A stretch of 64,000 bases of DNA from Streptomyces sp. CA-210063 (GTDB lineage: Bacteria; Actinomycetota; Actinomycetes; Streptomycetales; Streptomycetaceae): positions 5,146,001-5,210,000 of the forward strand of contig NZ_CP102512.1 in NCBI RefSeq assembly GCF_024612015.1, given 5' to 3'. The notes below the pieces were generated by a model that was given only the letters and a program-made list of their open reading frames with translations, made no database searches and was not told where the DNA came from. Positions 12,347 through 40,057 of the stretch are shown here, in pieces (position 1 is the stretch's first letter; each line of letters opens with the position of its first letter). The position numbers and the translations under genes were made by a program.

Positions 12347-15300
12347 GTGGAGAGATCGAATGAAGGTACGAACGGCGGAGCGGCGGACACAGGGGCGGAG
12401 ACGCTGCTGGACGTGCTGCTGACGGCGGCGCGGGAGACCCCGGGCCAGACCGTCGTTCATGTCCGGGGAGACGGCGGCGAGCACACGGTCACCTTCGCCG
12501 AACTCCGGGACGACGCCCTGCGTGTGGCGGGCGGGCTGATGGCGGCCGGCGTGACACCGGGCACCCCGCTGCCGCTGGTCGCCGACCGGGGCGACGCCTT
12601 CCAGCCGATGTTCTGGGGCGCGCTGGCGGCGGGAGCCGTCCCCGTACCGCTCGCCCCGGAGCCGCGCCGGATCGGCCCGGTGTGGGAACTCCTCGGCAGG
12701 CCGCCCGTGGTGGTGGACGGGTCGACGGCCGCCGTCGTCGCCGCACTCGACTGTGCGGCAGGCGCGTTGCGGCTGGACGCGCTCCGCGAAGGGCGCCCGC
12801 CCCGGCACCTGCCGCGCCGCTCACCCCACGACATCGCCTTCCTCCAGTTCTCCTCCGGCAGCACCGGCGCGCCCAAGGGCGTGGAACTGACCCACGCCGG
12901 CGTCCTCGCCAACCTCCGCCAGATCCGCGCCGCGATGGCAATCACCGCCGACGACGTGATCGCGACCTGGATGCCGTACTTCCACGACATGGGTCTCATC
13001 GGCACGCATCTCGTCCCGATGGCCGCGCGCCTGAAGCAGATACGGATCGAGCCGCTGTCCTTCGCCAAGCGCCCGGCGCTGTGGTTCGAGGCCGTCGCCC
13101 GTCACCGCGCGACCCTCCTCTCGGCCGCGAACTTCGCCCTCGCCCTCGCGGTACGACGAGTGCCGGAGGCCACCCTCGCCGGGCTCGACCTGAGCTGCGT
13201 ACGGCTGATGCTCGTCGGCGCCGAGCCCATCGCACCGCGCGTCTGGCGGGAGTTCACGGCCCGGACGGCTCCGGCGGGGCTCGACCCGCGCGCCCCGCTG
13301 CCGGTGTACGGCCTGGCCGAGGCGACGCTCGCGGTGACCGTGCCGCCGCTGGGCGAGATCGCCACGCCGCTGGTACTGGACCGGGCCGCGCTCAGCCGGG
13401 GGCGGGTGGTGGAGGCCGAACCGGGCCCGAACGCCGTGGAGTTGATGGACCTGGGGCGGCCGGTGGAGGGCTGCGAGGTCCGGATCACCGGCGCGTCCGG
13501 AGGACCGTCGGGTGAGTCGCGGGTCGGGCATGTGGAGGTGCGGGGGCCGCAGTTGGGGCGCGGGTACCACCGGGCGCCCGAGGCGAGCGCGGACGCGTTC
13601 GGGGGCGACGGCTGGCTGCGTACCGGTGACCTCGGCTTCCTGCGGGACGGGCGGCTGTGTGTCACCGGGCGCCACAAGGACGTGGTGTTCGTCAACGGCC
13701 GTACGTTCCACGCATCGGACCTGGAGGAGACGGTCGCCGCGACGCCGGGGCTGCCGCCGGGTGCCGTGGCGGTCGTGGGGTCGACCGATCCGGACGGTGG
13801 GGGCGAGCGGGTCGTCGCGTTCGTGCAGTGGGCGCGGCCCGAGCGCTCGGCTGCCGCCCCGGTGCTCCGGGCGGCCGCCGGGCGGCTCCGGGAGGCCCTC
13901 GGCCACGACGACGTACGGGTGCTGCCGCTGCCGCCGGGGGCGTTCGCGCGTACGACCAGCGGGAAACTGCGCCGAGGGGTGCTGCGCGGCCGGTTCGAGG
14001 CCGGGACGTACGCGGCGGTCGAGGCGCGCTGGGCAGATACCCGCGTCGGAGCGGACGTGCGGACCGGAACGGCTGTCCCCCGGTCGCCGCGTGCGATCGA
14101 GGAGTCCGTACGAGGGGTCTGGGCGCGGGTTCTGGAGCGGGACGCGGCCGAGATCGGACTTGAGGAGCGGTTCTTCGACCTCGGCGGGTCCTCACTCAAG
14201 GCGATGGCCGTGCTGGGCGGGCTGGAGGACACGTTCTCCGTGACGGTGGAGCCGGCCGCGCTGCGGGACCACGACACGGTGGCGGGACTGGCCGGGCATG
14301 TGCTGGAGCTGCTGGGCGGGGCGAGTCCGGGTGAGGAGGGGCGCGGCCCTCGCAAGGGCCGCAGGCCCTTCAGGGGCGCGGGGAACTGCGCGCCCAGCCA
14401 CGACACACCCGCAGCCGCCACCACACAGCTCCCCCCGAGCCATGAGGCGAGTGGCACCGGCACCGGCACCGATACCGGTACCGGTACCGCCGCACCCCTC
14501 GCCGTTCTCTCCGCAGCCTGTCGTTTCCCCGGCGTCGAGACTCCCGAAGCCTTCTGGGAGTTGCTGGCCACCGGCGGGAACACGGCCGACGCGGGGCCCG
14601 TGCCCCGCGCGAACGGCCGCCCCGGCGCCTTCCTCTCCCACCCCGCCGCCTTCGACGCCGACTTCTTCCGCATGGACGACGCGGAGGCGCGGACGACCGA
14701 CCCGCAGGCGCGGATCTTTCTCGAGCTGGCCCATGAGGCGCTGGAGCGTGCCGGGTACGCGGGACCACGGCGGGCCGGCCGCAGGGTCGGGGTGTTCGCG
14801 GCGACCGGGGACAGCGGATACCGCGAGATCCTGGCCGAGGCCGCCGACGGCGACCTCGCCCGCCACCCGGCCGCGCTCACCGGCAACCTCCCCAATCTGA
14901 TCGCCGCCCGCGTCTCCCAGGTACTGGACCTGAACGGCCCGGCCCTCGCCGTCGACACGGCCTGCTCCTCCGCGCTGGTCGCCCTGCACCTGGCCCGGCG
15001 CAGCCTGCTCTCCGGCGAGTGCGACCTCGCCGTGGTCGGCGGCGTCAACCTGGGCCTGACCCCGACCGGCCACCGCCTCCTCGAAGCGACGGGCGCGCTG
15101 TCCCCGACAGGCCGGTGCCGCGCGTTCGGCGCCGACGCCGACGGTTTCGTACCGGGGGAGGGCGGCGCGGCGATCGTCCTCGCCCGCCTCGACGACGCCC
15201 GCACCGCCGACGACCCGGTCCTCGCCCTCGTACGCGGTACGGCCGTGAACAACGACGGCCGCTCGCTCGGCCTCCTCGCCCCCACCCCGCGCGGCCAGCG

Positions 15301-18300
15301 TGAGGTGATCGGCCGGGCGTACGAGGAGTGCGGCGTCGATCCGGCCGACGTGTCGTACGTCGAGGCGCACGGCACGGGTACGCCGATCGGTGACCCCGTC
15401 GAGGCGCAGTCGCTGGGGCAGGCGTTCCCGCCCCGCGCCGACGGGGTCCCGCGCCGGCTCGGCTCGGTCAAGTCGAACCTGGGGCACCTGCTCAACGCGG
15501 CCGGCATGCCCGCCCTCGTCAAGGTCGTCCTCGCCCTCTCCCACCGCCGGCTCCCGCCGTCCCTCCACACCACCCCACCCGCCCCCTTCCTCGAACGCGT
15601 CGCCCCCGGCTTCCGCCTGGTCACCGAGCACGAGGAATGGACCGAGGCGGAGGACCGCCCGCTGATCGCGGGCGTCAACTCCTTCGGCTTCGGCGGCACC
15701 AACGCACACGCGGTGCTGGAGGAGGCGCCGAGGGACGCGGCCGGGCCCACGCCCATGCCCACACCCGGCCCCCACCTGCTGACCCTCTCCGCCCGCACCC
15801 ATGCCGCACTGCGCGTCGCCGCCGCCGAGTTGGCCGCGCGGCTGCGGGCCCACCCCGAACTGGACGAGGGCGACGTGTGCGCCACCGTCAACACCGCCCG
15901 GGACGAGGGGCCGTACCGGCTGGCCGTCGTGGCGGAGGGCGACCTCGCGGAGCGGCTCGAAGCGGCCGGTCGGGCGGGTTCCGCGAGCGCGGCGCCGGCC
16001 GCCGTACGGGCGTCCCGGCCGCGCACGGTGTTCGTACTGCCTGGTCAGGGGGCCCAACGACCAGGCCTCGGACGGGAGTTGTACCGCTCGGCGCCCGCGT
16101 TCCGTGAGGTCCTGGACGAGGCGTCCTCGCTCACCGGGCCGGTCCTCGGCCGCACCCTGGCCGCCTGGTGTCTGGACGAGGACGCCGACCCGGCGGCCCT
16201 GGCCCGGACGGAGGTGACACAGCCGCTGCTGGTGGCGTTCGGGGTGGCGCTGGCCGGGCAGCTGGCTGCGTGGGGGGTAGCGCCCGACGCGGTCGTGGGG
16301 CACAGCGTCGGCGAGATCACCGCCGCGTGCGTCGCCGGGGCCCTGCCCCTCGCCGAGGCGGTCGGTTTCGCCGCCGAACGCGGGCGACTGGTGGGCGGGC
16401 TCGCCGCGCCGGGCGCCATGGCGGCCGTACGGGGGGACGAGGACACCGTCGCCTCCGTACTCGCCGAGTCCGAGGGCACCCTCTGCGTGGCCGCCGTCAA
16501 CTCACCGACCCAGGTGGTGCTGGCGGGCGAGCCGGACGCCGTCGACCGCGCGGTCGCCGCCCTCACCGCCCGCGGCGTGGCCGCCCGCCGCCTCCGCGTC
16601 TCGCACGCCTTCCACTCCCCCATGCTGAACCCCGTCCTCGACCCCCTCCACAACGCCGCGAAGACCCTGACCGTCCACCCCGCCACCGTGCCCATGCTGA
16701 GCACCGTCACCGGCGAGTGGAACCCCGACCTGACCTCCGACTCCGGCCCCAGCTCCGGCCCCGACTCCGGTCCCGGCTTCGGCTATTGGCGCGACCACGC
16801 GATCCGCCCCGTCCGATTCGGCGCCGCCATCACCCGGCTCCTCGACGAGGGCTACGACACCTTCGTCGAACTCGGCCCCGGCGACTCCCTCTCCGGCCCG
16901 ATCCACGCGGTGACCGCCGCGCATTCCGGCGTCGCGCCCGCTGAGGTGGAGGTCCTCCCGGCACTGACCGCACCGAGATCGGGAGCGGGAGCAGGAGCAG
17001 AAGCGGCAGCAAAAGCGGAAGCAGGGGCAGGAGCGCTGCTTGAGACGGTCGGCCGGCTCTGGACCCGTGGAACCCCGCTCTCCCCGCACTCTCCGGCCTC
17101 TCCGGCCTCTCCGGCCTCTCCGGCCCGGAGCACGGTACGGCGACGGGTGCCGGTCCCCACGTACCCGTTCCAGCGCCGCCACCACTGGCCGGAGCGACTC
17201 GACACGGCACGTGGATCCGACACGGCACCTGGGTCCGGTACGACAACCGCATGCGAGTCGACGCCCTCCGCGCCCGACGGCATACCCGCCCCGCCCCAGC
17301 CCCTCCTCTGGCGCGACGCCCCACTGACCGCCGCCCCCGGCCCCGATGCCGTACGCCTGGCCGGCGCCGACACACCCCTCCGACGGTCCCTCACCGACCA
17401 ACTCACCCGGCGCGGAGTGACCGTGCTGCGGCAGCACGACGCCTCGCCGACAACCACCCCGGAGACCGTGCTGTGGTTCGCCGGTGACCCGACAGGGGCG
17501 GAGTCGGAGACCGCCGCCGCCGTCTCCGCCCTGCGCGAGGTACTGCCGTCGCTCGGCACGACCGCCACCCGCCTGCTGCTCGTCACGGAGGACGCGTACA
17601 GCACCGGCATCGCCGACTCCCCCGCCCGCCCCCGCCCCGCACAGGCGCTCCTGCACGGCTTCGCCCTCGCCCTCCCCGAGGAACATCCGGGCCTCTCCTC
17701 ACTGAGCATCGACCTGACGGCCCAGGACACCCTGGGTTCCCAACTCGACGCATTGACAAGGGAGTTGTGTGCCACCACCCCACCCGACCCCGGCGCGGGC
17801 GGCACCGTCGCCTGGCGTACGGGCCGCCGCCTCACCCGTACGACCATGCCCGCGAACGACGGCTCAAAGCCCCCGATACCCCCACTCCCCCTCCCCCGGA
17901 ACGGCACCTACCTGATCACCGGTGGCGCAGGCGGCCTCGGCTCCGCGCTCGCCCGCGACCTCGCGGAACGCGGCACCCCGACCCTGGTCCTCACCGGGCG
18001 CACCCCCACCCCACCCCGCGCCCTGCTCACCGACCTACGCGCCCTCGGCGCCCGCGCCCGCTACCAGACGGCCGACGCCACCGAAGCGGCCGACGTCGAC
18101 GAACTCATCGCGGGACTGCCACCCCTGGACGCGGTGTTCCACGCGGCCGGTACGGCCCGCCCCGGCAGCCTGCGCGGCAAGCCGGACGACGAGATCGAGG
18201 ACATGCTCGCCGCCAAGGTGCGCGGCACGACGCTGCTCGCCGAGGCACTGCGGCGGCACGGCCAGGAGGGCGCCGTATGCGTCGCCTTCTCCTCCGTCTC

Positions 18301-21300
18301 CGCCGTACTGCCCGGCCTGGCCGGCGCCCTCGGCGACTACGCCGCCGCCAACTCCTTCCTCGACGCCTTCGCCACCGCCGAGCGCACCGCGGGCCGCCCC
18401 TGGCGGTCGATCGCCTTCGGCCCCGTCACCGACACGGGCCTGGCCGCAGTTACGACACCGCAGCACGGCCCCGGCCTCGGCACACAGGACCGCCGACTCC
18501 GGTCTCACGGCCTCGCCCCCATGACCGCACGGGCCGCCCTCGCGGGCCTGCACGCGGCGGTCGCCCTGGACGCGGCCCACGTACTGGTGGCAGGCACGGG
18601 CGTGGCGACCCCCGCACCCGTCCCCACGCGAACCGACTCGACCGCGCCCGTCCCCACGCAAACCGACTCGACCGCGCCCGTCCCCACGCAAACCGACTCG
18701 GCCAAGCCCCTCCCCACAACATCCCACCCCCAAAGGGCTGTTCAGCGGCAGGACCTGCCCCAGCCGTCCCACGTCACCACGGTCATACGCCGCCTCCTGG
18801 CCGACGCGCTGCACCGCGCCCCGCAGGACATAGGCGACGACGAACAGTTCCTCACCCTCGGCCTGGACTCCCTCAGCGCCGTCGACCTCGCCCGCCGCCT
18901 CGAACGCGAACTCGGCCTGCCCCTCCCGGCCACCCTCCTCTTCGAGTACCGCACGATCGGCGAACTGGCCGCCCACCTGGCCACGACCCCGCCCGTGCCG
19001 GCGACGCCGACAGCGACCGTCACCCCGTACGCCCCCTCGCCGACACCCACACCCGAAGACCGCCCCCTCCCCCTCACCCCCCTCCAACTCGCCTTCCACA
19101 CCACCGAAACCCTCCACGAGGGCATCACCGCCTACGGCTATGTACGCCAGAGCATCAGCGGCCCCCTGGACACCGTCCTCCTCGGCCGGGCCCTCGCCCG
19201 CCTCGCCGCCCGCCACCCCATGCTGCGCCTGCGGATCACCGGTGACGGCGGCGCACGGCCCCGCCAGTACGTCGCACCCGCCGGGCCCGTGGACGCGGCA
19301 CCGCGCTGGTTCGAGATCGGGGACTCCCACGATCCGCGTGATTCGCGCGATCCGCGCGATCTGCGCGATCTGCGCCGGCTCGAACAGGACCTGTGCAACC
19401 GCCCGTTCGACCTGACGACGGAGGACCCCGTACGAGCCCTCCTCGTCCAGGACCGTGACGACGCCCACCTCGCCCACCTGCTCCTGGTCGTCCACCACGC
19501 CGCCGCCGACGGCTACAGCCTCAAGCTCCTCGCCGAGGACCTCTGGTCCCTCTACACAGCCCTGACCCGAGGGGATGAGAAACCCGAACTCGAAGCTCCG
19601 CAGGCCGAGTTCGGCGACTACGCGACCGCCGTGACCGCCGAACGCCAGTCCCCGGCGTACGCCCAGGACCAGCGGTACTGGCGCGACCGCCTGGCCGAAC
19701 ACACCACCGCCACCGCGCACCCCTCCCTGCCGTACGACGGAGACCCCGAAGCACCCCCCACCCCGCCCCTCACCCACCACCGCACCGGCATCGACGAGGC
19801 ACTGACCGCCGCGCTCCGCGATACGGCCGCGCGGCACGGGGTCTCGTTGTTCCACCTGCTGCTGGCGGTGTACGGCCGCTGTCTGGCGCGGTGGAGCGGG
19901 CGGCGGGCCGTGGCGGTCAATGTGGCCCGGGCCCGGCGGGAGTTGCCGATCGCGGGCATCGACCGTCTGGTGGGGCCGCTGGCCGACACCCTGCCGGTGT
20001 TCGTGACCACCGCCCCCGACGAACCGGCCACCGCGCTCGCCGGCCGGCTGCGGGAGATCTGGCGGGAAGCCGAGGCCCACGCGACCCTGAGCAGCACCGA
20101 CTTCGCCCGGCTGCTGTCCGAGGTGCGCCCCACCACCGGCCCGGCGCCGCGCACGGCGGCCGAGGCGGGGTTCAGTTTCGCCCGCTTCCCTGTGGTCCAC
20201 GGCCCCGACTGGCCGGTCACCGTCACCCCGACGGCCGCCGCCACCGCCTCCGCCGCCACCCGCCTCGGCCTCCTCTGCTGGGAGGCCGACGCGAGCCTGC
20301 GCCTGTCGTGGAACCACCCGGCCCACCTGTTCCGCCCCGAGACCGTCCGCCGCCTCGCCGACGAGTACGTCACCGAACTGCGCGCGGCGGTCGCGGACTT
20401 GGCGGATACCTCGAACGCCCTGACGGCCACGGCGGAGGCAGCGGCGACCGCCGTGACGTCCCCTCGGGAGGCGGCAGCGACCTCATCCACCGTCACGGCC
20501 ACCGGCGGAATCGTGAGCCGCCTGCACGCCCAGTTCCGCGCCACCCCCCACTCCATCGCCGTCGACACCGGTCGGACCACGCTCACCTACGCGGCCCTCG
20601 ACACCGCCTCCGCCGCCCTCGCCGCCCGCCTGCGCGCCCACGGCGTACGCCCCGGCGACCTGGTCGGGCTCCTCACCGAACCGGGCGGCACGGACACGGT
20701 CACCGGAGTCGTCGGCATCCTGCGCGCGGGCGCCGGCTGGGTACCGCTGGACGCCACCCACCCCACCGCCCGACACCGGGATCAGCTGTCCCGTACGGGA
20801 GTGCGCGTACTGGTCTGCGACAGGACGACCCACGAAGCGGCCGCAGGCCTGGACGGCATCACCCCGGTCACCGTGACCGAACCGGTCACCGTGACCGAAC
20901 CGGCCACCGTGACGGAACCGGCCACCGCGACCGAACCGGCCACCGCGACCGAACCGGCCACCGTGACGGAACCGGCCACCGTGACCGAACCGGCCGACGT
21001 GACCGAACCGGCCGACGTCCTACCGACCGCCGACCCTCACGACAATGACACCCCCACCCCTGACCCCCAAGCCATCGCCTACGTCATCTTCACCTCCGGC
21101 TCGACGGGCCGCCCCAAAGCCGTCCCCATCACCCACCACGCGATGACGAACTACCTCGACTGGTCACTGGCCACCTTCGGTTACGGCCCGGGCGACCGGC
21201 TGGCCCAGACCGCGTCGGTCTGTTTCGACGCCTCCGTACGGCAGTTGCTGGCCCCGCTGCTGGTGGGCGCCACGGTGCACACCCTCTCCCGGGACCTGCT

Positions 21301-24300
21301 GCGGGACCCCGACGCGCTGCTGGACCGTGTGGTGGCGGACCGCATCACGGTGTGGAGCTCGGTACCGACCCTGTGGGAACGCCTGCTGACCGCCGCCGAG
21401 GAACACACCCGGCAGCACGGCACGCCCCCCGACCTCTCCGCCCTGCGCTGGGTCCACGTGGGCGGCGAAGCACTGCCCGCAGCCCACGTACGCCGCTGGT
21501 TCGACCTACTGGGCACAGTCACCGGCACCGGCAGCGGCCCCGGCCACCACCGGATCGCCAACCTCTACGGCCCCACCGAAGCCACCATCAACGCCACCTG
21601 CCACATCATCGACACCCGCCCGGCCGACGACGTACGCCACCTCCCCATCGGCCGCCCGATCACCGGCACCGAACTGACCGTGGCCGACGAGGACGGACAC
21701 CCCTGCGCCCCAGGCGACTCCGGCGAACTCCTCATCGCCGGAACCGGCCTCACCCCCGGCTACCTGGGCGACCCCCACCTCACCGCCGCCGCCTTCACCG
21801 AACGGGACGGCCGCCGCTGGTACCGCAGCGGCGACCGCGTCCGCCGTACGGCCGACGGGGTGCTGGAGTTCCTGGGCCGGCTCGACGACCAGGTCAAGAT
21901 CCGTGGCCATCGCGTGGAACTCGGCGAGATCGAGGCCGCCCTGCTCACCCACCCGGACCTGGCCCGCGCGGCCGTACTGCTGCGCGACGGACGACTCGTG
22001 GCCTACGTCGAGCCCCGGACCCCCGCATCCACCCCCGACCCCCGCGAGGTGCGCGCCTTCCTCTCCCGCACCCTCCCCCCGTACATGCTCCCCGCCCGCA
22101 TCCACTCCCTCCCGGCACTCCCCCTGACCGGCACGGGCAAGATCGACCGCAACCGGCTCGCGCCCCGAAGCGACACCACGGCGGACACGGGCGCCGAGCC
22201 GCAGCAAGGCCACCCGCGCACGCCGCCCGCATCCCCCACCGAACGCCTGCTGGCACGCGCCTGGTCGGAACTGCTGGACGTCCCGGAGCCAGAAATCCAC
22301 CAGCAGGACGACTTCTTCACCCTCGGCGGCGACTCCATCACCGTGCTGGAACTGTTCTCCCGCCTACGCCACGACCGCCCCGCACTGCCACGCCCGACCG
22401 CCGTCTACACGCACCGCACACTGACCGCCCTGGCGGCAGCCATCGACGCGACCCCCACGACCACGCCCCCAGCCGAGACCAGGCAGACCGAGCCCACCCT
22501 CACCCCGTACCCCCTCACCCCCTCCCAACAGGGCTTCCTCCTCGCCGACGCCCTCGCCTCCGGCGCTCCCGGAACTCCCGGTACCCCCCGCGCCAACCCC
22601 GCCTGGCTGGCCCGCTTCCGTATCCACGGCCCCCTGAACCCGGACCTGTTCCAACGCTCCGTCGACGTCCTGATGGCCCGGCACCCCATGCTCCGCACGG
22701 TCTTCCCGTCCGGCGCCCGCCCACCCGTGCAACAGGAACTCCCCGCCTCGCTACGACTCCCCGTAGAGACGGAAGTCCTGTCCCACCCCGACCTGCTGGA
22801 GGAACGCGTCGCCGAGGAGGCGCGCCGCCGTTTCGAACCCTGGGCCTGGCCCCTGCTGCGCCTGCGCCTGTTCACCGTCGCCCCCGACGAGCACATACTC
22901 CTCGTCCACGCCCACCACCTCATCGGCGACGGCTACAGCGCGGCCCTGCTCACCCGTGAACTCCTCACCGTGTACGGCCGCTTCGAACGCGGCCTGCCCC
23001 ACGGCCTGGAGCCCCTGCACTCCACCTTCCGCGACCACGTCCACCACCGGACCACGCACCACCAGCCCGCGACCCCCCAGGCACCGCACCCGCAGACCGA
23101 GGAAGGCCAGGAAGGCCAAGAACGCCAGGAAGGCCAGGAAGGCCAGGAACACGAGGAACGCGAGGAACGCCAGGAATACCGCACCCGCCACCACACCCCG
23201 TACACCCCACCCGTCCTACGGACACCCCGCCCCGGCACCCCCACGCGGGACATTGCCGCCTTCCACACCACCACCTTCACCCTCGACGCCGACCACACCC
23301 ACGCCCTCCGCCGCCTCGCGTCGCAGACCGCCGGCACCACCCTCTACGCCCCTCTCCTCACCGCGTACTACCGCGCCCTCACCACCCTCACCGGCCACCG
23401 CGACCTGGTCCTCGGCCTGGCCGTCACCGGCCGCGACGAGACCACACCGGACGCACACCACGTCTTCGGCCCCTTCGCCGAGGCGGTGGCACTACGCCCT
23501 GCCCTCCACCCCTCTTTCGTCCCCTCCCCCTCCCCCATCCCCATCCCCGACTTCGACGAGGACCTCCGCCGTATCGCCGCCGAGACGATCGCGGCCCGCA
23601 CCACCGGCCCCCTGGACCTCCGTACGCCCCAAGGCCTCCCCCGTACCGCCCAGTTCTTCTTCACGTTCCTCGACTTCGCCTCCCTCGGCACACCCCCCGA
23701 CACGACCCTGACCCTCCACGCCGACGACACCGAAACGGCGCTCGCCCCGCCGCCGGTGGGCACGGACGTCTTCCTGGCGGTACGCCCGTCCCCGACCGGC
23801 GAAGGCCTACGCGTCACGGCCCGCGCATCGGCGACAGCCCTCACGTCCGACGAACTCACGGACTTCGCGGGGGAGTTGCGCGCCCAACTGGAAGCCGCAC
23901 CGCACGGGAAGATCACGGCCCCCACCCCTCCCCTCGACGCCGCCCTCATCGGCTACCTCCCCGCCCCGCACCACCTGGCCGCCTTCGCCGGCCTCCCCCC
24001 ACACGCGGCCCCCAGCCGCGAACAGATCCGCGCCCTCCTCTTCCCGGACGGCAGGGCCAGACTCCTGGAGAGCATCACCACGCCCCTCGGCAGATCCGGT
24101 TTCGTCTCGCTCCCCCTCTTCGCCGACGAGCTGACGGGCCCGTTCCCCACCGGGGACCTCCCCACCCACACCGCACGGGCGGTGGAACACGCCGCGTCCC
24201 TCGGCGCCCGCTGCGTCTCACTGGCCGGCATGATCCCGTCCCTCACGGGCTACGGCTACGACGTCCTCCGGGAGACCTCGGCGACGCCCGCCCCCCTCAC

Positions 24301-25135
24301 CGCGACCCTCACCACGGGACACGCGGCCACGACCGTCGCCGTGGTCAAAACGGTCCGCACCGCACTCACCGCGACCGACCGCGACCTCTCCGAGCTGACC
24401 CTCGCCGTCGTCGGCTGCGGCTCCATCGGCACGTCATCGCTGCGCCTGCTCCTGGCCCGCAGCCCCCACCCCCCGGCCCGACTCCTCCTCTGCGACCTGC
24501 CGGGCAGCGCCCCGCGCCTCCACGACCTCGCCACGGAACTGTCGGTCGATCACCCCACGATGGCCGTCCAGGTGGTCGAGTCGACCGACACCCGGACCCT
24601 CCCCACCGAGGTCTACGAGACAGCCGACGTCATCGTCACGGCGGTCAGCGGGGGCCCGACGACCCTGCTGGACGTCGACCGGCTACGGCCCGGCACGATC
24701 GTCGTGGACGATTCTTTCCCGCACTGTTTCGACACCGCGCGGGCCCTGGACCGTATGCGGCACAAGCAGGACGTACTGATCGTGGGAGGCGGCCTGCTGG
24801 CCCTGGATCCCACCGAGACGCACCTGTCACCGGACCTCCCGGCCCTCGCCCGCACCGGCCGGGCCACGGCCCGCACCCAGCACCACCTCCCGGGCACCCT
24901 GGCCTCCTGCCGCCTGGAGTCCCTCCTCCACGCCCACCACACCGCCTCGGACTCCGGTACGGAACTCCCCCTGATCCACGGCCTGGTCGACCTCCCCGGC
25001 GCCCTCGCCCACTGGGACGCCGCCGAAGCCGCCGGAGTCCGCCCGGCCCCCCTCCACCTCCTCGACCACGCCATCCCACCGGAGGCCCTCGCGACCCTGC
25101 CCCCACCGCCGTCCCGGCCCCAGCCCTCGCTCTGA
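12347..25135 (+). CDS. Hybrid FAAL-PKS-NRPS megasynthase with C-terminal reductase-like domain
   Basis: A 4262-residue lipopeptide-type synthase. Domains by eye: FAAL 20-560 (FSSGSTG near 168, YFHDMGLIG 211); ACP1 580-660 (Ser616 in GGSSL); KS 715-1130 (Cys873 in DTACSS, His1008, His1047); AT 1225-1520 (Ser1320 in GHSVGE, His1420-AF-His1423, malonyl type); KR about 1640-2050 (GGAGGLG 1859, Tyr1998, Asn2002); ACP2 (Ser2175); C1 2240-2700 (HHAAADG 2383); A 2720-3270 (FTSGSTG 2915, NLYGPTE, GKID); PCP (Ser3330); C2 3385-3870 (HHLIGDG 3523); reductase-like domain 3880-4262 (GCGSIG 4023, Cys4188). Inferred route: fatty acid, one reduced malonyl extension, one amino acid, then release. The start is GTG 12347 without a strong ribosome site. 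No thioesterase, MbtH, PPTase or tailoring gene adjoins. Many tandem repeats interrupt linkers and even domains, all in frame. Amino-acid choice and oligomeric state cannot be read. Confidence 0.93.
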   Translation: MERSNEGTNGGAADTGAETLLDVLLTAARETPGQTVVHVRGDGGEHTVTFAELRDDALRVAGGLMAAGVTPGTPLPLVADRGDAFQPMFWGALAAGAVPVPLAPEPRRIGPVWELLGRPPVVVDGSTAAVVAALDCAAGALRLDALREGRPPRHLPRRSPHDIAFLQFSSGSTGAPKGVELTHAGVLANLRQIRAAMAITADDVIATWMPYFHDMGLIGTHLVPMAARLKQIRIEPLSFAKRPALWFEAVARHRATLLSAANFALALAVRRVPEATLAGLDLSCVRLMLVGAEPIAPRVWREFTARTAPAGLDPRAPLPVYGLAEATLAVTVPPLGEIATPLVLDRAALSRGRVVEAEPGPNAVELMDLGRPVEGCEVRITGASGGPSGESRVGHVEVRGPQLGRGYHRAPEASADAFGGDGWLRTGDLGFLRDGRLCVTGRHKDVVFVNGRTFHASDLEETVAATPGLPPGAVAVVGSTDPDGGGERVVAFVQWARPERSAAAPVLRAAAGRLREALGHDDVRVLPLPPGAFARTTSGKLRRGVLRGRFEAGTYAAVEARWADTRVGADVRTGTAVPRSPRAIEESVRGVWARVLERDAAEIGLEERFFDLGGSSLKAMAVLGGLEDTFSVTVEPAALRDHDTVAGLAGHVLELLGGASPGEEGRGPRKGRRPFRGAGNCAPSHDTPAAATTQLPPSHEASGTGTGTDTGTGTAAPLAVLSAACRFPGVETPEAFWELLATGGNTADAGPVPRANGRPGAFLSHPAAFDADFFRMDDAEARTTDPQARIFLELAHEALERAGYAGPRRAGRRVGVFAATGDSGYREILAEAADGDLARHPAALTGNLPNLIAARVSQVLDLNGPALAVDTACSSALVALHLARRSLLSGECDLAVVGGVNLGLTPTGHRLLEATGALSPTGRCRAFGADADGFVPGEGGAAIVLARLDDARTADDPVLALVRGTAVNNDGRSLGLLAPTPRGQREVIGRAYEECGVDPADVSYVEAHGTGTPIGDPVEAQSLGQAFPPRADGVPRRLGSVKSNLGHLLNAAGMPALVKVVLALSHRRLPPSLHTTPPAPFLERVAPGFRLVTEHEEWTEAEDRPLIAGVNSFGFGGTNAHAVLEEAPRDAAGPTPMPTPGPHLLTLSARTHAALRVAAAELAARLRAHPELDEGDVCATVNTARDEGPYRLAVVAEGDLAERLEAAGRAGSASAAPAAVRASRPRTVFVLPGQGAQRPGLGRELYRSAPAFREVLDEASSLTGPVLGRTLAAWCLDEDADPAALARTEVTQPLLVAFGVALAGQLAAWGVAPDAVVGHSVGEITAACVAGALPLAEAVGFAAERGRLVGGLAAPGAMAAVRGDEDTVASVLAESEGTLCVAAVNSPTQVVLAGEPDAVDRAVAALTARGVAARRLRVSHAFHSPMLNPVLDPLHNAAKTLTVHPATVPMLSTVTGEWNPDLTSDSGPSSGPDSGPGFGYWRDHAIRPVRFGAAITRLLDEGYDTFVELGPGDSLSGPIHAVTAAHSGVAPAEVEVLPALTAPRSGAGAGAEAAAKAEAGAGALLETVGRLWTRGTPLSPHSPASPASPASPARSTVRRRVPVPTYPFQRRHHWPERLDTARGSDTAPGSGTTTACESTPSAPDGIPAPPQPLLWRDAPLTAAPGPDAVRLAGADTPLRRSLTDQLTRRGVTVLRQHDASPTTTPETVLWFAGDPTGAESETAAAVSALREVLPSLGTTATRLLLVTEDAYSTGIADSPARPRPAQALLHGFALALPEEHPGLSSLSIDLTAQDTLGSQLDALTRELCATTPPDPGAGGTVAWRTGRRLTRTTMPANDGSKPPIPPLPLPRNGTYLITGGAGGLGSALARDLAERGTPTLVLTGRTPTPPRALLTDLRALGARARYQTADATEAADVDELIAGLPPLDAVFHAAGTARPGSLRGKPDDEIEDMLAAKVRGTTLLAEALRRHGQEGAVCVAFSSVSAVLPGLAGALGDYAAANSFLDAFATAERTAGRPWRSIAFGPVTDTGLAAVTTPQHGPGLGTQDRRLRSHGLAPMTARAALAGLHAAVALDAAHVLVAGTGVATPAPVPTRTDSTAPVPTQTDSTAPVPTQTDSAKPLPTTSHPQRAVQRQDLPQPSHVTTVIRRLLADALHRAPQDIGDDEQFLTLGLDSLSAVDLARRLERELGLPLPATLLFEYRTIGELAAHLATTPPVPATPTATVTPYAPSPTPTPEDRPLPLTPLQLAFHTTETLHEGITAYGYVRQSISGPLDTVLLGRALARLAARHPMLRLRITGDGGARPRQYVAPAGPVDAAPRWFEIGDSHDPRDSRDPRDLRDLRRLEQDLCNRPFDLTTEDPVRALLVQDRDDAHLAHLLLVVHHAAADGYSLKLLAEDLWSLYTALTRGDEKPELEAPQAEFGDYATAVTAERQSPAYAQDQRYWRDRLAEHTTATAHPSLPYDGDPEAPPTPPLTHHRTGIDEALTAALRDTAARHGVSLFHLLLAVYGRCLARWSGRRAVAVNVARARRELPIAGIDRLVGPLADTLPVFVTTAPDEPATALAGRLREIWREAEAHATLSSTDFARLLSEVRPTTGPAPRTAAEAGFSFARFPVVHGPDWPVTVTPTAAATASAATRLGLLCWEADASLRLSWNHPAHLFRPETVRRLADEYVTELRAAVADLADTSNALTATAEAAATAVTSPREAAATSSTVTATGGIVSRLHAQFRATPHSIAVDTGRTTLTYAALDTASAALAARLRAHGVRPGDLVGLLTEPGGTDTVTGVVGILRAGAGWVPLDATHPTARHRDQLSRTGVRVLVCDRTTHEAAAGLDGITPVTVTEPVTVTEPATVTEPATATEPATATEPATVTEPATVTEPADVTEPADVLPTADPHDNDTPTPDPQAIAYVIFTSGSTGRPKAVPITHHAMTNYLDWSLATFGYGPGDRLAQTASVCFDASVRQLLAPLLVGATVHTLSRDLLRDPDALLDRVVADRITVWSSVPTLWERLLTAAEEHTRQHGTPPDLSALRWVHVGGEALPAAHVRRWFDLLGTVTGTGSGPGHHRIANLYGPTEATINATCHIIDTRPADDVRHLPIGRPITGTELTVADEDGHPCAPGDSGELLIAGTGLTPGYLGDPHLTAAAFTERDGRRWYRSGDRVRRTADGVLEFLGRLDDQVKIRGHRVELGEIEAALLTHPDLARAAVLLRDGRLVAYVEPRTPASTPDPREVRAFLSRTLPPYMLPARIHSLPALPLTGTGKIDRNRLAPRSDTTADTGAEPQQGHPRTPPASPTERLLARAWSELLDVPEPEIHQQDDFFTLGGDSITVLELFSRLRHDRPALPRPTAVYTHRTLTALAAAIDATPTTTPPAETRQTEPTLTPYPLTPSQQGFLLADALASGAPGTPGTPRANPAWLARFRIHGPLNPDLFQRSVDVLMARHPMLRTVFPSGARPPVQQELPASLRLPVETEVLSHPDLLEERVAEEARRRFEPWAWPLLRLRLFTVAPDEHILLVHAHHLIGDGYSAALLTRELLTVYGRFERGLPHGLEPLHSTFRDHVHHRTTHHQPATPQAPHPQTEEGQEGQERQEGQEGQEHEEREERQEYRTRHHTPYTPPVLRTPRPGTPTRDIAAFHTTTFTLDADHTHALRRLASQTAGTTLYAPLLTAYYRALTTLTGHRDLVLGLAVTGRDETTPDAHHVFGPFAEAVALRPALHPSFVPSPSPIPIPDFDEDLRRIAAETIAARTTGPLDLRTPQGLPRTAQFFFTFLDFASLGTPPDTTLTLHADDTETALAPPPVGTDVFLAVRPSPTGEGLRVTARASATALTSDELTDFAGELRAQLEAAPHGKITAPTPPLDAALIGYLPAPHHLAAFAGLPPHAAPSREQIRALLFPDGRARLLESITTPLGRSGFVSLPLFADELTGPFPTGDLPTHTARAVEHAASLGARCVSLAGMIPSLTGYGYDVLRETSATPAPLTATLTTGHAATTVAVVKTVRTALTATDRDLSELTLAVVGCGSIGTSSLRLLLARSPHPPARLLLCDLPGSAPRLHDLATELSVDHPTMAVQVVESTDTRTLPTEVYETADVIVTAVSGGPTTLLDVDRLRPGTIVVDDSFPHCFDTARALDRMRHKQDVLIVGGGLLALDPTETHLSPDLPALARTGRATARTQHHLPGTLASCRLESLLHAHHTASDSGTELPLIHGLVDLPGALAHWDAAEAAGVRPAPLHLLDHAIPPEALATLPPPPSRPQPSL
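14372..14399 (+). repeat. Interspersed repeat copy 2, inside the megasynthase reading frame
   Basis: The same 28-bp element as at 12232, two mismatches, same orientation. It lies in the ACP1-KS linker and is translated in frame (residues about 676-684, reading FRGAGNCAP). It is preceded by a hairpin AAGGGCC-GCA-GGCCCTT, which resembles the left flank of such elements. It must have inserted or been copied without breaking the frame. Confidence 0.65.
18617..18706 (+). repeat. 30-bp tandem repeat, 3 copies, KR-ACP2 linker
   Basis: Copies start at 18617, 18647 and 18677. Each encodes PVPTxTDSTA-like residues, so the repeat lengthens a Pro/Thr linker between the ketoreductase and the second carrier protein without shifting frame. 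Confidence 0.85.
20873..21016 (+). repeat. 18-bp tandem repeat, 8 copies, inside the adenylation domain
   Basis: Units start every 18 bp from 20873 to 20999 with consensus GTGACCGAACCGGCCACC. They encode eight six-residue VTEPAT-like repeats (residues about 2843-2890). They sit between the A2 and A3 core motifs of the adenylation domain, just before the ATP-binding FTSGSTG, where most A domains have a short loop. Confidence 0.9.
23098..23180 (+). repeat. 9-bp tandem repeat encoding a Glu/Gln-rich stretch in C2
   Basis: Around nine units of GAAGGCCAG and variants (GAACGCCAG, GAACACGAG) encode EGQ/ERQ/EHE triplets over about 28 residues (3585-3612). They fall between the N- and C-lobes of the second condensation domain, where the lobe linker normally is. 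Confidence 0.8.
23984..25132 (+). other. Acyl-ACP-reductase-like release domain of the megasynthase
   Basis: The last 380 residues form a module not usual in NRPSs. It has an N-terminal part with SLGARCVSLAG and TTGHAATTVAVVK, a Rossmann dinucleotide motif VVGCGSIGTSS (residues 4021-4031), segments ADVIVTAVSGGP and TIVVDDSFPH, and a cysteine in LASCRLESLL (Cys4188). The order and spacing resemble cyanobacterial long-chain acyl-ACP reductase (AAR), where a cysteine in a FACFAEA context forms the acyl-enzyme and NADPH reduces it to an aldehyde. Canonical NRPS R domains are instead SDR/NmrA-like with YxxxK, which is not seen here. Alternatives are a shikimate-dehydrogenase-like or cyclodeaminase-like fold. 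Confidence 0.6.
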
Positions 25136-27480: not shown

Positions 27481-28869
27481 CTACGCCCTGTCGGCCGTAG
27501 TCTGGCCGGTCTCTCCGCCCAGCGGCTCACCGACCAGCGTTGCCGCCGCGAGCGCGTAGGTGAGCAGGTGGCTGGCTTGCATCCCACCGGCGGTAAAAGC
27601 GGCCCGCAGCTTCAAGTACAGGGCGTAGAAGGTCAGCGGCTGCTGCGGATCGCACAGGGCGCCGATGTTTCCCTTCGGCACACCCCACGTCCGCAGCGCC
27701 CCCGCTGGATCGTCCTCAGCGGCGAGCCGGGCACCGTCCGCGAGCCAGGGGAGGCCGAGCTCACCGGCCGCCTGGTCGAAGAGGCTCACATACCAGTCCC
27801 GCGAGCGGCACTGGATCGCGTCGCACACCTCGGTGGTCCTCAGGTACGAGGGGTCGAGCGGGGTGTGGATGGGGGCTGATCCGAACATCTCCGAGGTGAA
27901 GGAGACGGCTCCCGCCCCGGTGCCGGAGGCGGCCTCGGTCGCATCCAGGGCCAGGTCGAGGGCTTCCTGGGCGAGCTTGCGCTCCTCGGGGTTCATCTCC
28001 CGCAACAGCGCGGCCGCCCGCTGCCGGGCGGGCGGGTGGCTCGCGCCCCGGCGAACGAAGAGCGCCCGTTCGGTGACATGCACGGCCAGCATCCCGATGG
28101 CGGCTCCGACGGCCCCGAGAGCCGCCTGCTCGCTCGCAGACGGCAGATCGTCGAAGAGCCGTTCGCACGCGCGCCGGACGGCCCGCAACGCGTGCAGGTC
28201 GGCTTCCGCCTCAAGCTGGTGGCTCTCCGAACAGACGGGCAGGTACTCGTCGGGCGCGAAGGCGCTCACCGAGGACGCGTGCCCCAGGACGTAGTGCGCG
28301 AGTTCGTGGGCCAGGACGAACTGCGCGGACATGTACTGGAGAAGGATGGCGTACTGCGTGGCCATCGGTTCCAGCCGGATCTCCATTTTCCCCGCGAGCC
28401 CGAACACCCGCTGCTGTGTGGTGTAGTAGCGCAGCAGTCCGGTCAGGACCTGCGTCTCGGGGCCGCGCTGCCCGGCGAGCCCCAGCGCCTGGGCGTACAG
28501 CCCACACAGGCTGACGGTCGCATCCGACACCGTGACGAGTCCCGAGTCGTCGGTGAAGCGGGTCATCCGGGCGGAGAACGTGTCGCGATTGAGGGCCACG
28601 GCCCATACGTCGTCCAGGGCCGTGCGGCTCGCACCGAGGTCGGCCAGGGCGTCCTTCACGTTCCCGACCATCTCCGTGAGCCCTTCACCGACGGGGTCGT
28701 CCGGGAACTGGGGTCCGGTCGCGCCGAACTCCGCCATCATCGTGTCGAGTTCCCGCAGCCCGCGGTCGTCCCCCAGCTCGGTCAGCCGTGCACGCATCTT
28801 GGCCAACTGACGGGCCCGGTTGACCCTCAGCTTCTCGTACTGGCGGTAGGCGAGGCTCCCGCCGCTCAC
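27481..28869 (-). CDS. Zinc metallopeptidase-like protein (HELAH)
   Basis: A 462-residue protein with the zinc-binding motif HELAH (His188-Glu189, His192) in VLAHELAHYVLGH and a downstream EAEAD (Glu220-Asp224) that would supply the third ligand, as in M48/M56-like and ImmA-like families. The N-terminal 110 residues are helical and charged. After the active site there is a long helical region with ATP-independent, uncharacterised features. It starts at GTG 28869, overlapping the upstream stop by four bases (GTGA), which implies translational coupling. No signal peptide, so it probably acts on cytosolic or membrane-proximal targets. Substrate unknown. Confidence 0.75.
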   Translation of the reverse strand: MSGGSLAYRQYEKLRVNRARQLAKMRARLTELGDDRGLRELDTMMAEFGATGPQFPDDPVGEGLTEMVGNVKDALADLGASRTALDDVWAVALNRDTFSARMTRFTDDSGLVTVSDATVSLCGLYAQALGLAGQRGPETQVLTGLLRYYTTQQRVFGLAGKMEIRLEPMATQYAILLQYMSAQFVLAHELAHYVLGHASSVSAFAPDEYLPVCSESHQLEAEADLHALRAVRRACERLFDDLPSASEQAALGAVGAAIGMLAVHVTERALFVRRGASHPPARQRAAALLREMNPEERKLAQEALDLALDATEAASGTGAGAVSFTSEMFGSAPIHTPLDPSYLRTTEVCDAIQCRSRDWYVSLFDQAAGELGLPWLADGARLAAEDDPAGALRTWGVPKGNIGALCDPQQPLTFYALYLKLRAAFTAGGMQASHLLTYALAAATLVGEPLGGETGQTTADRA

Positions 28870-29231
28870 GCGGAGAGCTCCGGCGCCGGGGCGGTGCGGC
28901 AGAACACACCGAGCCCGACCCGGCCCACCAGTACCGCGATCAGGACGGCGGTCTTGGCGTCGCCCGCGAAGTCGGCGATCAGTTCCTGCACGGTGAAGGC
29001 GTCGATGAGCCGGTCCGTCGATGTCGTGCCGAGGAACGCCTGCGCCTTCTCGTGGTGGCAGATTCGCCGCTGGAGTTCGGCGTGTTTGTCCGCGAACCAC
29101 TCCTTGCCGAACTCCCGGTGGCTCTCCTCGTCCTCCGGCGAGAGGCCGAGACCTTCGCCCAGGAGTTCGGCCCCCAGCAGGGCATACAGTTCGTCGTCGG
29201 TCTTGTCCCAGTAGCTCTCGACCGTGGTCAT
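28866..29231 (-). CDS. Small protein heading the metallopeptidase operon
   Basis: A 121-residue protein I do not recognise. It opens with an acidic helical region (ESYWDKTDDELYALLGAELL), has a basic middle (HAELQRRICHHEKAQAFLG) and ends with a hydrophobic segment (AKTAVLIAVLVGRVGLGVF) that could be membrane-associated. ATG 29231 follows GGAGG at about 10 bases; ATG 29255 is possible but places that site inside the gene. The stop overlaps the GTG of the metallopeptidase gene, so the two products are probably made in fixed ratio and may interact. Confidence 0.65.
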   Translation of the reverse strand: MTTVESYWDKTDDELYALLGAELLGEGLGLSPEDEESHREFGKEWFADKHAELQRRICHHEKAQAFLGTTSTDRLIDAFTVQELIADFAGDAKTAVLIAVLVGRVGLGVFCRTAPAPELSA

Positions 29232-37817: not shown

Positions 37818-39620
37818 TTACGGCGCGTCGATCAGGTCGTGCGGCGGTACCTGGACCGTGCGCTTGCCCGCGTCGCCGCCGAGGACGACCTTGCGGAGCG
37901 CGATGTTGTTCTTGTGGTTCGTCTCCTGGAGACGGTTCTCCGGGTTGGCGATGACCTGGATGTAGTACGTGCCGTTGGGCAGGTCGGTGATGTCGAAGGA
38001 CTGGCCGGGACGGTACTGGGTGTACGTGTCGCCGGAGCCGACGTCGAGGACCTCACGTACGGAGATGGCGTCCTGCGAACCGCACGCGGTGGACAGGTCG
38101 GTGTTCTCCGGGTGCCAGTTGGCGTTCTTCACCGTGTAGTCGATGGCGTCGGTGTTGGCCAGGCAGAACGCCTCCTTGCCGGAGCGCACCTCCTTCGTCT
38201 GGTCCTCGCTGAGCAGGCGGTAGCTGGCGAAGTCCGTGAAGTGCCAGTGCTCGTGGCCCTCGCGCGGGTCCCACTCCATGGTGCCGGTGGGGGTGTAGCC
38301 GACCTGCTTGCCGTCGGCGTCGTAGAAGTACTGGTACGCGTCCATCAGGTCCGCGCCGGGCTTGCGGAAGCCGTCGACGACGAGGGGCGCGGGGCCCGCG
38401 TTCCAGACGTTCGCGCTGAAGGCGAGGTAGTCCTTGCCGGCCACGTCGCCGTCCTCGCCGTCGGTGATGGCGATGTCCCAGGCGGGCAGCGACCGCAGGT
38501 CAGGCTTGGGGATGTTCGCCGGGGCGCCCGCCTTGCCGGTGGGCCGCTTGGGGGCGGCCTTCAGGGCGGGCGCGATGCGGGAGCCATCGGTGTGGCCCTT
38601 GCCGTCGCCGAGGTGGTGGGCGAGGCCCCGGTCCTTGAGGGCGAAGGACAGCTCCGGCGGCGTCGGGGCGTCGGCGCCGCGCGGGCCGTAGTGGCCGTCC
38701 TGGGCCGGCTGTCCGGCCGGGGCCGACTGGGCGGCGTGGTCGCCGCCGTGAGCACCGCCGTGGTGGGCGGAGGACGACGACTTCGACGGGGCCAGGCCCG
38801 CGCCGCCGCCCTCCTCGGTCTCCTCCCGCACCGTCACCTTGACGGTCGGCCGGTCGTCGGGCATGCCGAACAGATCGCGGTACTTCTTCGCCACGCCCAC
38901 CTGGGCGGTGTACTCGCCGACCGGCAGGTCCACCGCACCCCCCTCGTAGTCCCACGTGGTGGTGTTGGCCGCCCAGCCCTTCTCGACGCCCCACACCGAG
39001 CCGAGCGTCCACGGGTTGGTGGAGCAGCTCTGCGGATAGTGGTTGGTCGCCGGGGCGTCCGGGCGGATCCGGCCCGAGGCGTTGTTCGGGCAGAAGTTCC
39101 CCTCGCTCTTCACCACTTCGTCGCCGGCCGCGTTCTTGACCGAGATCTCCAGGAAGCCGGGCAGCCCGGAGAAGTCGTTGAACAGCCCCTTGGGCAGGGT
39201 CTTCGTCTTCGTGGTCTTGCCGTCGCGGAGGATCTGCTTGGCGACGATCGGGTCCTTGTACGACTTCCGCGTCACCTGGAACTCCAGGGGCGCGTTGTCG
39301 ACCGTGACGTACGTCCCGAGCTGCAGGAAGACGCCCTGGGACCACTCGGAGCGGGTGAGCGTCACGGAGTTCGACGCGGCGATCAGCTTGAGCTCCGGCT
39401 TCCCGGGCGTCGCGGCGGGCGCGGCACCGGCGCCGGGAGCGGCCCCGGCGATGGCGGCCACCACGGTGAGCGACGCCAGGGCGGCGAGACCCGGACGGGA
39501 CAGGCGGCTGCGGCGCTCCCGGCCTCTCGTCCGGCCGGTCGCCCCCTCGCCCGTACCGTCGGCCCCCGGCCCGTTCGTCGGACTGCTCGGACTGTTCGAA
39601 CTGGTCATCTGGCTGGTCAT
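37818..39620 (-). CDS. Secreted lysyl-oxidase-like protein
   Basis: A 600-residue exported protein. After a long Ser/Thr/Arg N-terminus comes a signal segment (LAALASLTVVAAIAGAAPGA), then a beta-rich region, a His/Gly/Ala-rich linker (SSSSAHHGGAHGGDH), and a C-terminal lysyl oxidase domain with the copper-binding HEHWH (His456, His458, His460) in GHEHWHFTDF. Animal lysyl oxidase oxidises lysines using copper and a Lys-Tyr quinone; the bacterial members' substrates are not established. ATG 39620 follows GAGGA; ATG 39608 is close. It is divergent from the SCO2400-type gene. Confidence 0.85.
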   Translation of the reverse strand: MTSQMTSSNSPSSPTNGPGADGTGEGATGRTRGRERRSRLSRPGLAALASLTVVAAIAGAAPGAGAAPAATPGKPELKLIAASNSVTLTRSEWSQGVFLQLGTYVTVDNAPLEFQVTRKSYKDPIVAKQILRDGKTTKTKTLPKGLFNDFSGLPGFLEISVKNAAGDEVVKSEGNFCPNNASGRIRPDAPATNHYPQSCSTNPWTLGSVWGVEKGWAANTTTWDYEGGAVDLPVGEYTAQVGVAKKYRDLFGMPDDRPTVKVTVREETEEGGGAGLAPSKSSSSAHHGGAHGGDHAAQSAPAGQPAQDGHYGPRGADAPTPPELSFALKDRGLAHHLGDGKGHTDGSRIAPALKAAPKRPTGKAGAPANIPKPDLRSLPAWDIAITDGEDGDVAGKDYLAFSANVWNAGPAPLVVDGFRKPGADLMDAYQYFYDADGKQVGYTPTGTMEWDPREGHEHWHFTDFASYRLLSEDQTKEVRSGKEAFCLANTDAIDYTVKNANWHPENTDLSTACGSQDAISVREVLDVGSGDTYTQYRPGQSFDITDLPNGTYYIQVIANPENRLQETNHKNNIALRKVVLGGDAGKRTVQVPPHDLIDAP

Positions 39621-40057
39621 CGGTTCCTCGTCTGCGAGTGCCATGGTCAGTGGCATCGGACTGGACAGCCCACGGACGGCGACCGGTCGGCCGACCGTAC
39701 GGCGCACCCCAACGCGCCTGGGCCCGGCCGGGCTTGCTCCGGCCGCCCTGTGAGCAACCTGTGAGATTGGTAAACGGCGTGTGCGGGTTGCCTGTTGAGG
39801 CGGAATTCGACGAACGGGGCGGCGAGGACGGCTCAAACAGTGGCGAGCACGGCTCAAACACATGCCCGCACATCCCTGCGGAACCGGCTCCAAGTCCCCG
39901 AAGGATCCACGCAGGAGCATCACACAGCCTGCACACAGCTCTGAGAATGGCTCGTTAGCGTTGCTGACCGCTCGATCCGCTCGATCCCACGTGCGAACGT
40001 GACGTGACCGGGCCGCGGCCCGGCGGGTCGGCGGCATGCCCACACAGGAAGACCTCC
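39621..40057. other. Divergent promoter region, no gene seen
   Basis: About 440 bp between two divergent genes. It contains a direct repeat (CGGCTCAAACA at about 39830 and 39852). I see no coding frame with convincing codon use and no clear operator palindrome. Confidence 0.55.

Follow-up and report, generated by a model that had tools for sequence, protein, structure and literature searches.

Domain Organization of the Megasynthase

The stretch of 64,000 nucleotides analysed here, hereafter the window, comes from the 10.86 Mb, single-contig genome of Streptomyces sp. CA-210063 (NZ_CP102512.1, positions 5,146,001 to 5,210,000) and contains the open reading frame (ORF) of a large hybrid of polyketide synthase (PKS) and nonribosomal peptide synthetase (NRPS). 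Pfam, NCBIfam and motif scans give this megasynthase the order FAAL-ACP-KS-AT-KR-ACP-C-A-T-C, followed by residues 3880-4262, the subject of this study (FAAL, fatty acyl-AMP ligase; ACP, acyl carrier protein; KS, ketosynthase; AT, acyltransferase; KR, ketoreductase; C, condensation; A, adenylation; T, carrier domain; Table 1). The domain order, like the fold, the family and the cysteine of the terminal domain described below, is established by computation. The codon-position GC content of the ORF is coding-like right to the C-terminal end, and a search of the host genome with the terminal domain returned one match. We are nearly certain that residues 3880-4262 form an off-loading domain with the fold of the cyanobacterial acyl-ACP reductase (AAR), and highly confident that it is of the type named TAD, which we read as “terminal amidation domain,” in structures from the carmabin pathway.

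Fold and Family of the Terminal Domain

In a search with a structure model of residues 3880-4262, TAD and AAR rank first, far ahead of other Rossmann proteins, and the best match, structurally and by sequence, is the TAD of the carmabin NRPS (28% identity), present in the PDB as five entries under the title “TAD from Carmabin Biosynthetic Pathway” (9e4s, 9e4u, 9e4x, 9e50, and 9e56; released 2025-02-26). A single-sequence AlphaFold model of the domain (pLDDT 46) was set aside. The Pfam scan of the domain at E 1 gave a weak THF_DHG_CYH_C match alone and no short-chain dehydrogenase/reductase (SDR) or thioester-reductase profile, while the AAR profile TIGR04058 scored 22 bits, its curated cut-off being 449.7; nothing in the host genome exceeds this cut-off, which a protein of the control Synechococcus elongatus does. 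Pfam and NCBIfam alone would have pointed to PigE/AAR, and the TAD would have been missed. A preliminary description of this DNA had proposed an AAR-like domain at the end of a PKS-NRPS, distinct from reductive release domains of the SDR/NmrA type and with a Rossmann motif GCGSIG; the searches confirm both the domain and the distinction, and the motif is borne out as a conserved dinucleotide loop.

Within the superfamily, TADs and AARs can be told apart. An alignment of 29 sequences places H113, D171, D243, S244, H247, and C248 (domain numbering) in all 13 Streptomyces megasynthase rows, the window included, and in all seven cyanobacterial TAD rows; both AAR rows and all five PigE-like rows lack them, having TTGN, no DDSxPHC motif and a gap at Asp171. 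TTGH, DDSxPHC, and Asp171 are all three present in a Pantoea row (L122), and PYC replaces PHC in two further sequences, the stand-alone Streptomyces protein L123 and L126. In a tree with long branches and uneven composition, the TAD-like group is split from the AAR/PigE-like group with support 100/99, and one sequence (L106) is placed weakly beside the Streptomyces group (72/45). Cyanobacterial AAR (6jzq, 6jzu, 6jzy, 6jzz) shares with the window domain the fold, the reactive cysteine Cys294, the Rossmann loop and an acyl-carrier substrate, but is a stand-alone enzyme that makes an aldehyde with NADPH. The N-terminal region of PigE and proteins of about 700 residues (four of them tested against NCBIfam) belong to the same superfamily but differ in the same motifs and in their place in the tree; most relatives among L007-L063 are such distant proteins and not TADs. 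Seven records with Desulfo- or Deltaproteobacteria titles (L020, L012, L021, L009, L010, L008, and L047) contain neighboring pairs of these proteins, each with a C-terminal AAR/PigE-like domain.

Near copies of the carmabin TAD end Moorena and Okeania NRPSs; one Okeania NRPS (L004 4463-11023) has a second module C-T-TAD without an adenylation domain of its own. The Moorena protein L003 is 91% identical to the 9e4x fragment and has the layout C-A-MT-T-TAD (MT, methyltransferase), with positions close to those given for HcaD and VatR. In L003 the TAD stands straight after the carrier, whereas in the window a condensation domain intervenes and FAAL, PKS, and NRPS are encoded in one gene. According to the hectoramide B paper, the terminal “amidotransferase” domain of HcaD is 83.5% identical to that of VatR, follows the last carrier and is believed to off-load the product as a primary amide; carmabin A, the dragonamides, and vatiamides E and F carry terminal amides, and the mechanism was unstudied at the time of writing, with ammonolysis as the hypothesis (PMC10949194). 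HcaD and VatR are linked to the window domain through the mention of carmabin in that paper and the module layout of L003, not through sequence comparison. The earlier statement that no described NRPS with this domain was known is superseded by the carmabin entries and by HcaD and VatR, and the domain type is not categorically new, because the carmabin-pathway domain has been in the PDB since 2025. Since a condensation domain separates carrier and TAD, we class the terminal domain of the window megasynthase as a TAD-type variant, one that most likely functions as a TAD does, and set it apart from the carmabin-type TAD proper; a variant of this kind within the AAR/PigE-reductase fold superfamily, ending a lipid-primed PKS-NRPS, is probably the right description.

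Reactive Cysteine and Nucleotide Site

The megasynthase matched 393 proteins, of which 120 were listed and analyzed together with the window (121 rows). Cys4188 (domain position 309) and Cys4127 (248) are invariant in all of them. When 24 TAD-type rows were compared with 63 AAR/PigE-like rows by hhalign (E 5e-24), Cys309 paired with Cys294 of AAR, numbered from the Met of the Okeania reference, as the preliminary description had supposed; the AAR column holds Cys in 55 rows, Gly in six, Ser in one and a gap in one. The title of PDB 9e56 names a disulfide between Cys2238 and dephospho-CoA, and among the seven cysteines of that fragment the one aligned with Cys309 fits this number best, judged by the aligned ranges. 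Cys4127 is not common to AAR. Across 25 of the 34 listed domain stretches (alignment A1), 61 columns are invariant, both cysteines and the dinucleotide loop among them, which makes a relic of AAR, decayed or without catalysis, barely conceivable.

D171, at the end of the second strand, has a counterpart in the carmabin TAD, of which structures with NADH and with NAD exist, and R178 is invariant in the 121 rows, with Phe at this position in the carmabin TAD. Judged from these residues, D171 would favor NAD(H), although R178 still permits the NADPH that had been suggested as hydride donor.

Release Chemistry

In the proposed pathway, the FAAL would load a fatty acid, the PKS module would add a malonate unit and reduce it to give a beta-hydroxyacyl chain, and the NRPS module would attach one amino acid. 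Transfer of the chain from the carrier to Cys4188 of the terminal domain would follow, and attack by ammonia on this acyl-enzyme would release an N-(3-hydroxyacyl)-amino acid primary amide, with NAD(H) in the Rossmann cleft beside the cysteine as participant or relic. The intact terminal condensation domain may be part of the release unit, presenting the chain or making a further bond. We infer the acyl-enzyme, the ammonia, the amide and this role of the condensation domain. Release as an amide seems to us reasonably probable, and a better guess than an aldehyde, because the pathway product of the closest solved relative ends in an amide. A primary amide terminates carmabin, vatiamide, and hectoramide, and amidation is the step proposed for the terminal domain of these pathways (PMC10949194). 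The aldehyde originally predicted would fit less well with a domain that carries the TAD-distinguishing residues and has its closest relatives in primary-amide pathways, and an “AAR-like” NRPS end should not be taken to mean “aldehyde.”

Glutamine-dependent NAD synthetase frees ammonia from glutamine, a reaction that would fit amidation, and a second gene for it stands near a TAD at two loci. In the cyanobacterium G440, it (L108 12228-13913; CN_hydrolase + NAD_synthase) follows the TAD-NRPS gene, and its product shares 72% identity with the other copy in G440. In the Streptomyces genome G251, it (L126 3303-5099) lies three predicted genes from a stand-alone TAD that has KS, KSIII-type, and ACP genes as neighbors, and the genome has a further, partial NAD_synthase match. 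The second synthetase may supply ammonia, may equally be a self-resistance copy, or may be there by chance; its role stays among these three readings because the two loci stand against 21 stretches without one.

Several observations weigh against amide release by a TAD-type domain. Identity to the carmabin TAD is just 28%, the PDB titles do not spell out “TAD,” and in the window lineage the TAD is preceded by an extra condensation domain, which is missing from L003 and L108. No amidation partner was recognized among the window neighbors scanned, several of which have no family match. A search of 21 further stretches, from 15 places of which the window is one, found no relatives of NAD synthetase (four query ORFs, of which that of L143 matched none of the others and is probably in a wrong frame), and both NAD synthetases of genome G065 lie away from its TAD-like gene. 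The domain also keeps its nucleotide site, although ammonolysis has no need of NAD(H). This last point would be explained if TADs amidated by hydride borrowing, in which NADH reduces the Cys-bound acyl group to an aldehyde, ammonia adds and NAD+ retakes the hydride without net redox change; we regard this as improbable, but if true, Streptomyces would have built such an amidation into a one-gene C-TAD release unit. The conserved cysteine and nucleotide motif would also fit reductive release, with hydride from NAD(P)H turning the Cys4188 acyl-enzyme into a lipo-amino aldehyde or alcohol. AAR offers a precedent in its C294 acyl-enzyme, reduced to an aldehyde with NADPH, and the invariant R178 aligns with AAR R193, a named contact of the NADPH phosphate (PMC7089970). 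Given the amide-ending pathways of the closest relatives, we consider reductive release a doubtful though serious alternative. A further paper (PMC11085572) concerns, in the part available, another domain (R0) and was not used.

The Terminal Condensation Domain

All 121 rows have HHxxxDG in the condensation domain that precedes the TAD, and 119 of them have LGGDS in the carrier before it. Searched alone at E 1e-60, it was found in three of 41 genomes (G000, G001, and G007), exactly those of the 41 with a TAD match, so that domain and TAD behave as one unit. Its best PDB matches are Txo1 and PvdL, which we take to be condensation domains, and tyrocidine synthetase A chains, presumably epimerization domains, follow at about 0.003. 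The carrier motif LGGDS would be epimerization-like; in sequence, the domain tentatively seems closer to condensation domains than to epimerization domains. The same T-C-TAD ending occurs in a cyanobacterial protein (L107, genome G315), KS-KR-T-C-A-T-C-TAD by Pfam, whose second carrier (MGGDSL) was read from the sequence. The conserved motif, the joint occurrence and the recurrence in L107 would also suit release by the condensation domain itself, which might, for example, join the chain to a free nucleophile as an ester, a lactone or an amide, the TAD modifying the chain or regulating. No such domain is present in the T-TAD ends of L003 and L108, however, and the TAD looks selected as an enzyme because Cys4188 is invariant, so that we hold release by the condensation domain to be very improbable.

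The Megasynthase Family in Streptomyces

The adenylation pocket reads DARSHGL[IV]NK in 106 of the 121 rows, with one unread position in 14 and a different code in one (script reading). Because the code is near-uniform, nearly all family members probably activate the same amino acid; the code of the window is not known to match that of any particular amino acid. The AT motif HAFH presumably marks a malonyl-type acyltransferase. The megasynthase seems to form a pathway of a single gene, with the reservation that several window neighbors have no family match.

Table 1. Features of the megasynthase gene (window coordinates).
Feature	Position	Strand	Details and evidence
Whole megasynthase ORF	12347..25135	+	4262 aa, GTG start
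FAAL-like loading domain, residues about 14-556	12386..14014	+	NCBIfam fatty acyl-AMP ligase; phmmer to 6ulw
Loading carrier domain, residues about 585-660, boundaries set by eye	14099..14326	+	One of three PP-binding stretches; DLGGSSLKAM
Ketosynthase, residues 717-1075, DTACSS	14495..15571	+	Pfam and motif scan
Acyltransferase, residues 1228-1511, GHSVG and HAFH	16028..16879	+	Pfam and motif scan; HAFH read from sequence
Ketoreductase, residues 1853-2028	17903..18430	+	Pfam
ACP, residues 2146-2211, LGLDSL	18782..18979	+	Pfam and motif scan
Condensation domain 1, residues 2241-2697, HHAAADG	19067..20437	+	Pfam and motif scan
Adenylation domain, residues 2728-3265	20528..22141	+	Pfam; pocket code by script DARSHGLINK
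Peptidyl carrier domain, approximate boundaries, LGGDSI at 3326	22244..22450	+	Pfam and motif scan
Terminal condensation domain, between carrier and TAD	22487..23983	+	PF00668 at 3.8e-35; HHLIGDG 3523-3529 (22913-22933)
AAR-fold, TAD-type off-loading domain, residues 3880-4262	23984..25132	+	Structure search, sequence comparison, tree, hhalign
TTGH motif, residues 3989-3992	24311..24322	+	29-sequence alignment; TTGN in AAR and PigE-like rows
GCGSIG dinucleotide loop, residues 4023-4028	24413..24430	+	Conserved; alignment
Asp4050 (domain D171), end of strand 2	24494-24496	+	Alignment
DDSFPHC motif, residues 4121-4127, invariant His4126 and Cys4127	24707..24727	+	Without counterpart in AAR
Cys4188, predicted acyl-accepting cysteine	24908..24910	+	121/121 rows; pairs with AAR Cys294

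The terminal domain has a match at 1e-10 in 48 of 295 sampled Streptomyces genomes. In 38 of them the match lies in a frame of 3,726-4,724 residues (two with one TGA inside the match), a candidate for the homologous fusions that the preliminary description proposed to look for; the others are shorter frames, fragments and stand-alone proteins, and the count is one of frame lengths rather than of domain orders confirmed in each genome. A phylum-wide sample gave matches in 11 of 296 genomes, four of them strong, all four in Streptomyces with the genome of the window among them, and seven weak, in frames of 366-390 residues. The cyanobacterial sample gave five of 386, counting the center genome, chosen for having the domain. 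Among the 120 listed of 393 homologues of the megasynthase, the nearest named ones are from Streptomyces. A type of release domain known from marine cyanobacteria is thereby placed in a common soil genus, with many expressible homologues for asking by what route an AAR fold could yield an amide and what the condensation domain in front of the TAD is for. New here are the spread of the family in the genus, the intact condensation domain between carrier and TAD, and the second NAD synthetase at two TAD loci. The open PMC subset, which leaves subscription papers and preprints outside the search, yielded no paper on the TAD structures or on the Streptomyces family and no description of the T-C-TAD order, the one-gene lipo-aminoacyl layout or the spread in the genus.

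TAD-like proteins also occur outside megasynthases, with ACP and KS genes (L126 9092-10411 and L123 7800-8996), among FAD-oxidoreductase and aminomethyltransferase-type genes (L125 9180-11018), and on a plasmid of Pantoea stewartii, inside an NRPS cluster and adjoining a luciferase-like monooxygenase (L122 8692-9981).

Gene Neighborhood

No gene is common to all sampled neighborhoods (six Streptomyces genomes and one Streptomyces plasmid), and the flanks of the window were matched only in the close relative G253. Genomes G104, G207, and G007 have a common downstream block, with luciferase-like, phosphoesterase, MHYT, arginase-family, and MFS genes in G104. A BTAD/SARP-type regulator is encoded just upstream of the G104 megasynthase (L112 9258-11291), with a homologous upstream protein in G007; none was found among seven scanned upstream ORFs of the window. 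In Streptomyces fungicidicus, the megasynthase gene is flanked by WGR-domain and TerB genes, with hydrogenase-maturation genes nearby. Elsewhere in the window, all on the minus strand, lie an ORF that weakly matches the phage exclusion protein Lit (27481-29100; NF007238, 2.7e-9, below cut-off) and has a weak M48-like stretch, a gene whose 752-aa product carries a lysyl oxidase domain at its C terminus (37818-40076), and a gene for a SpoIIE phosphatase with PAS, GAF, and histidine-kinase-like ATPase domains (5395-8310).
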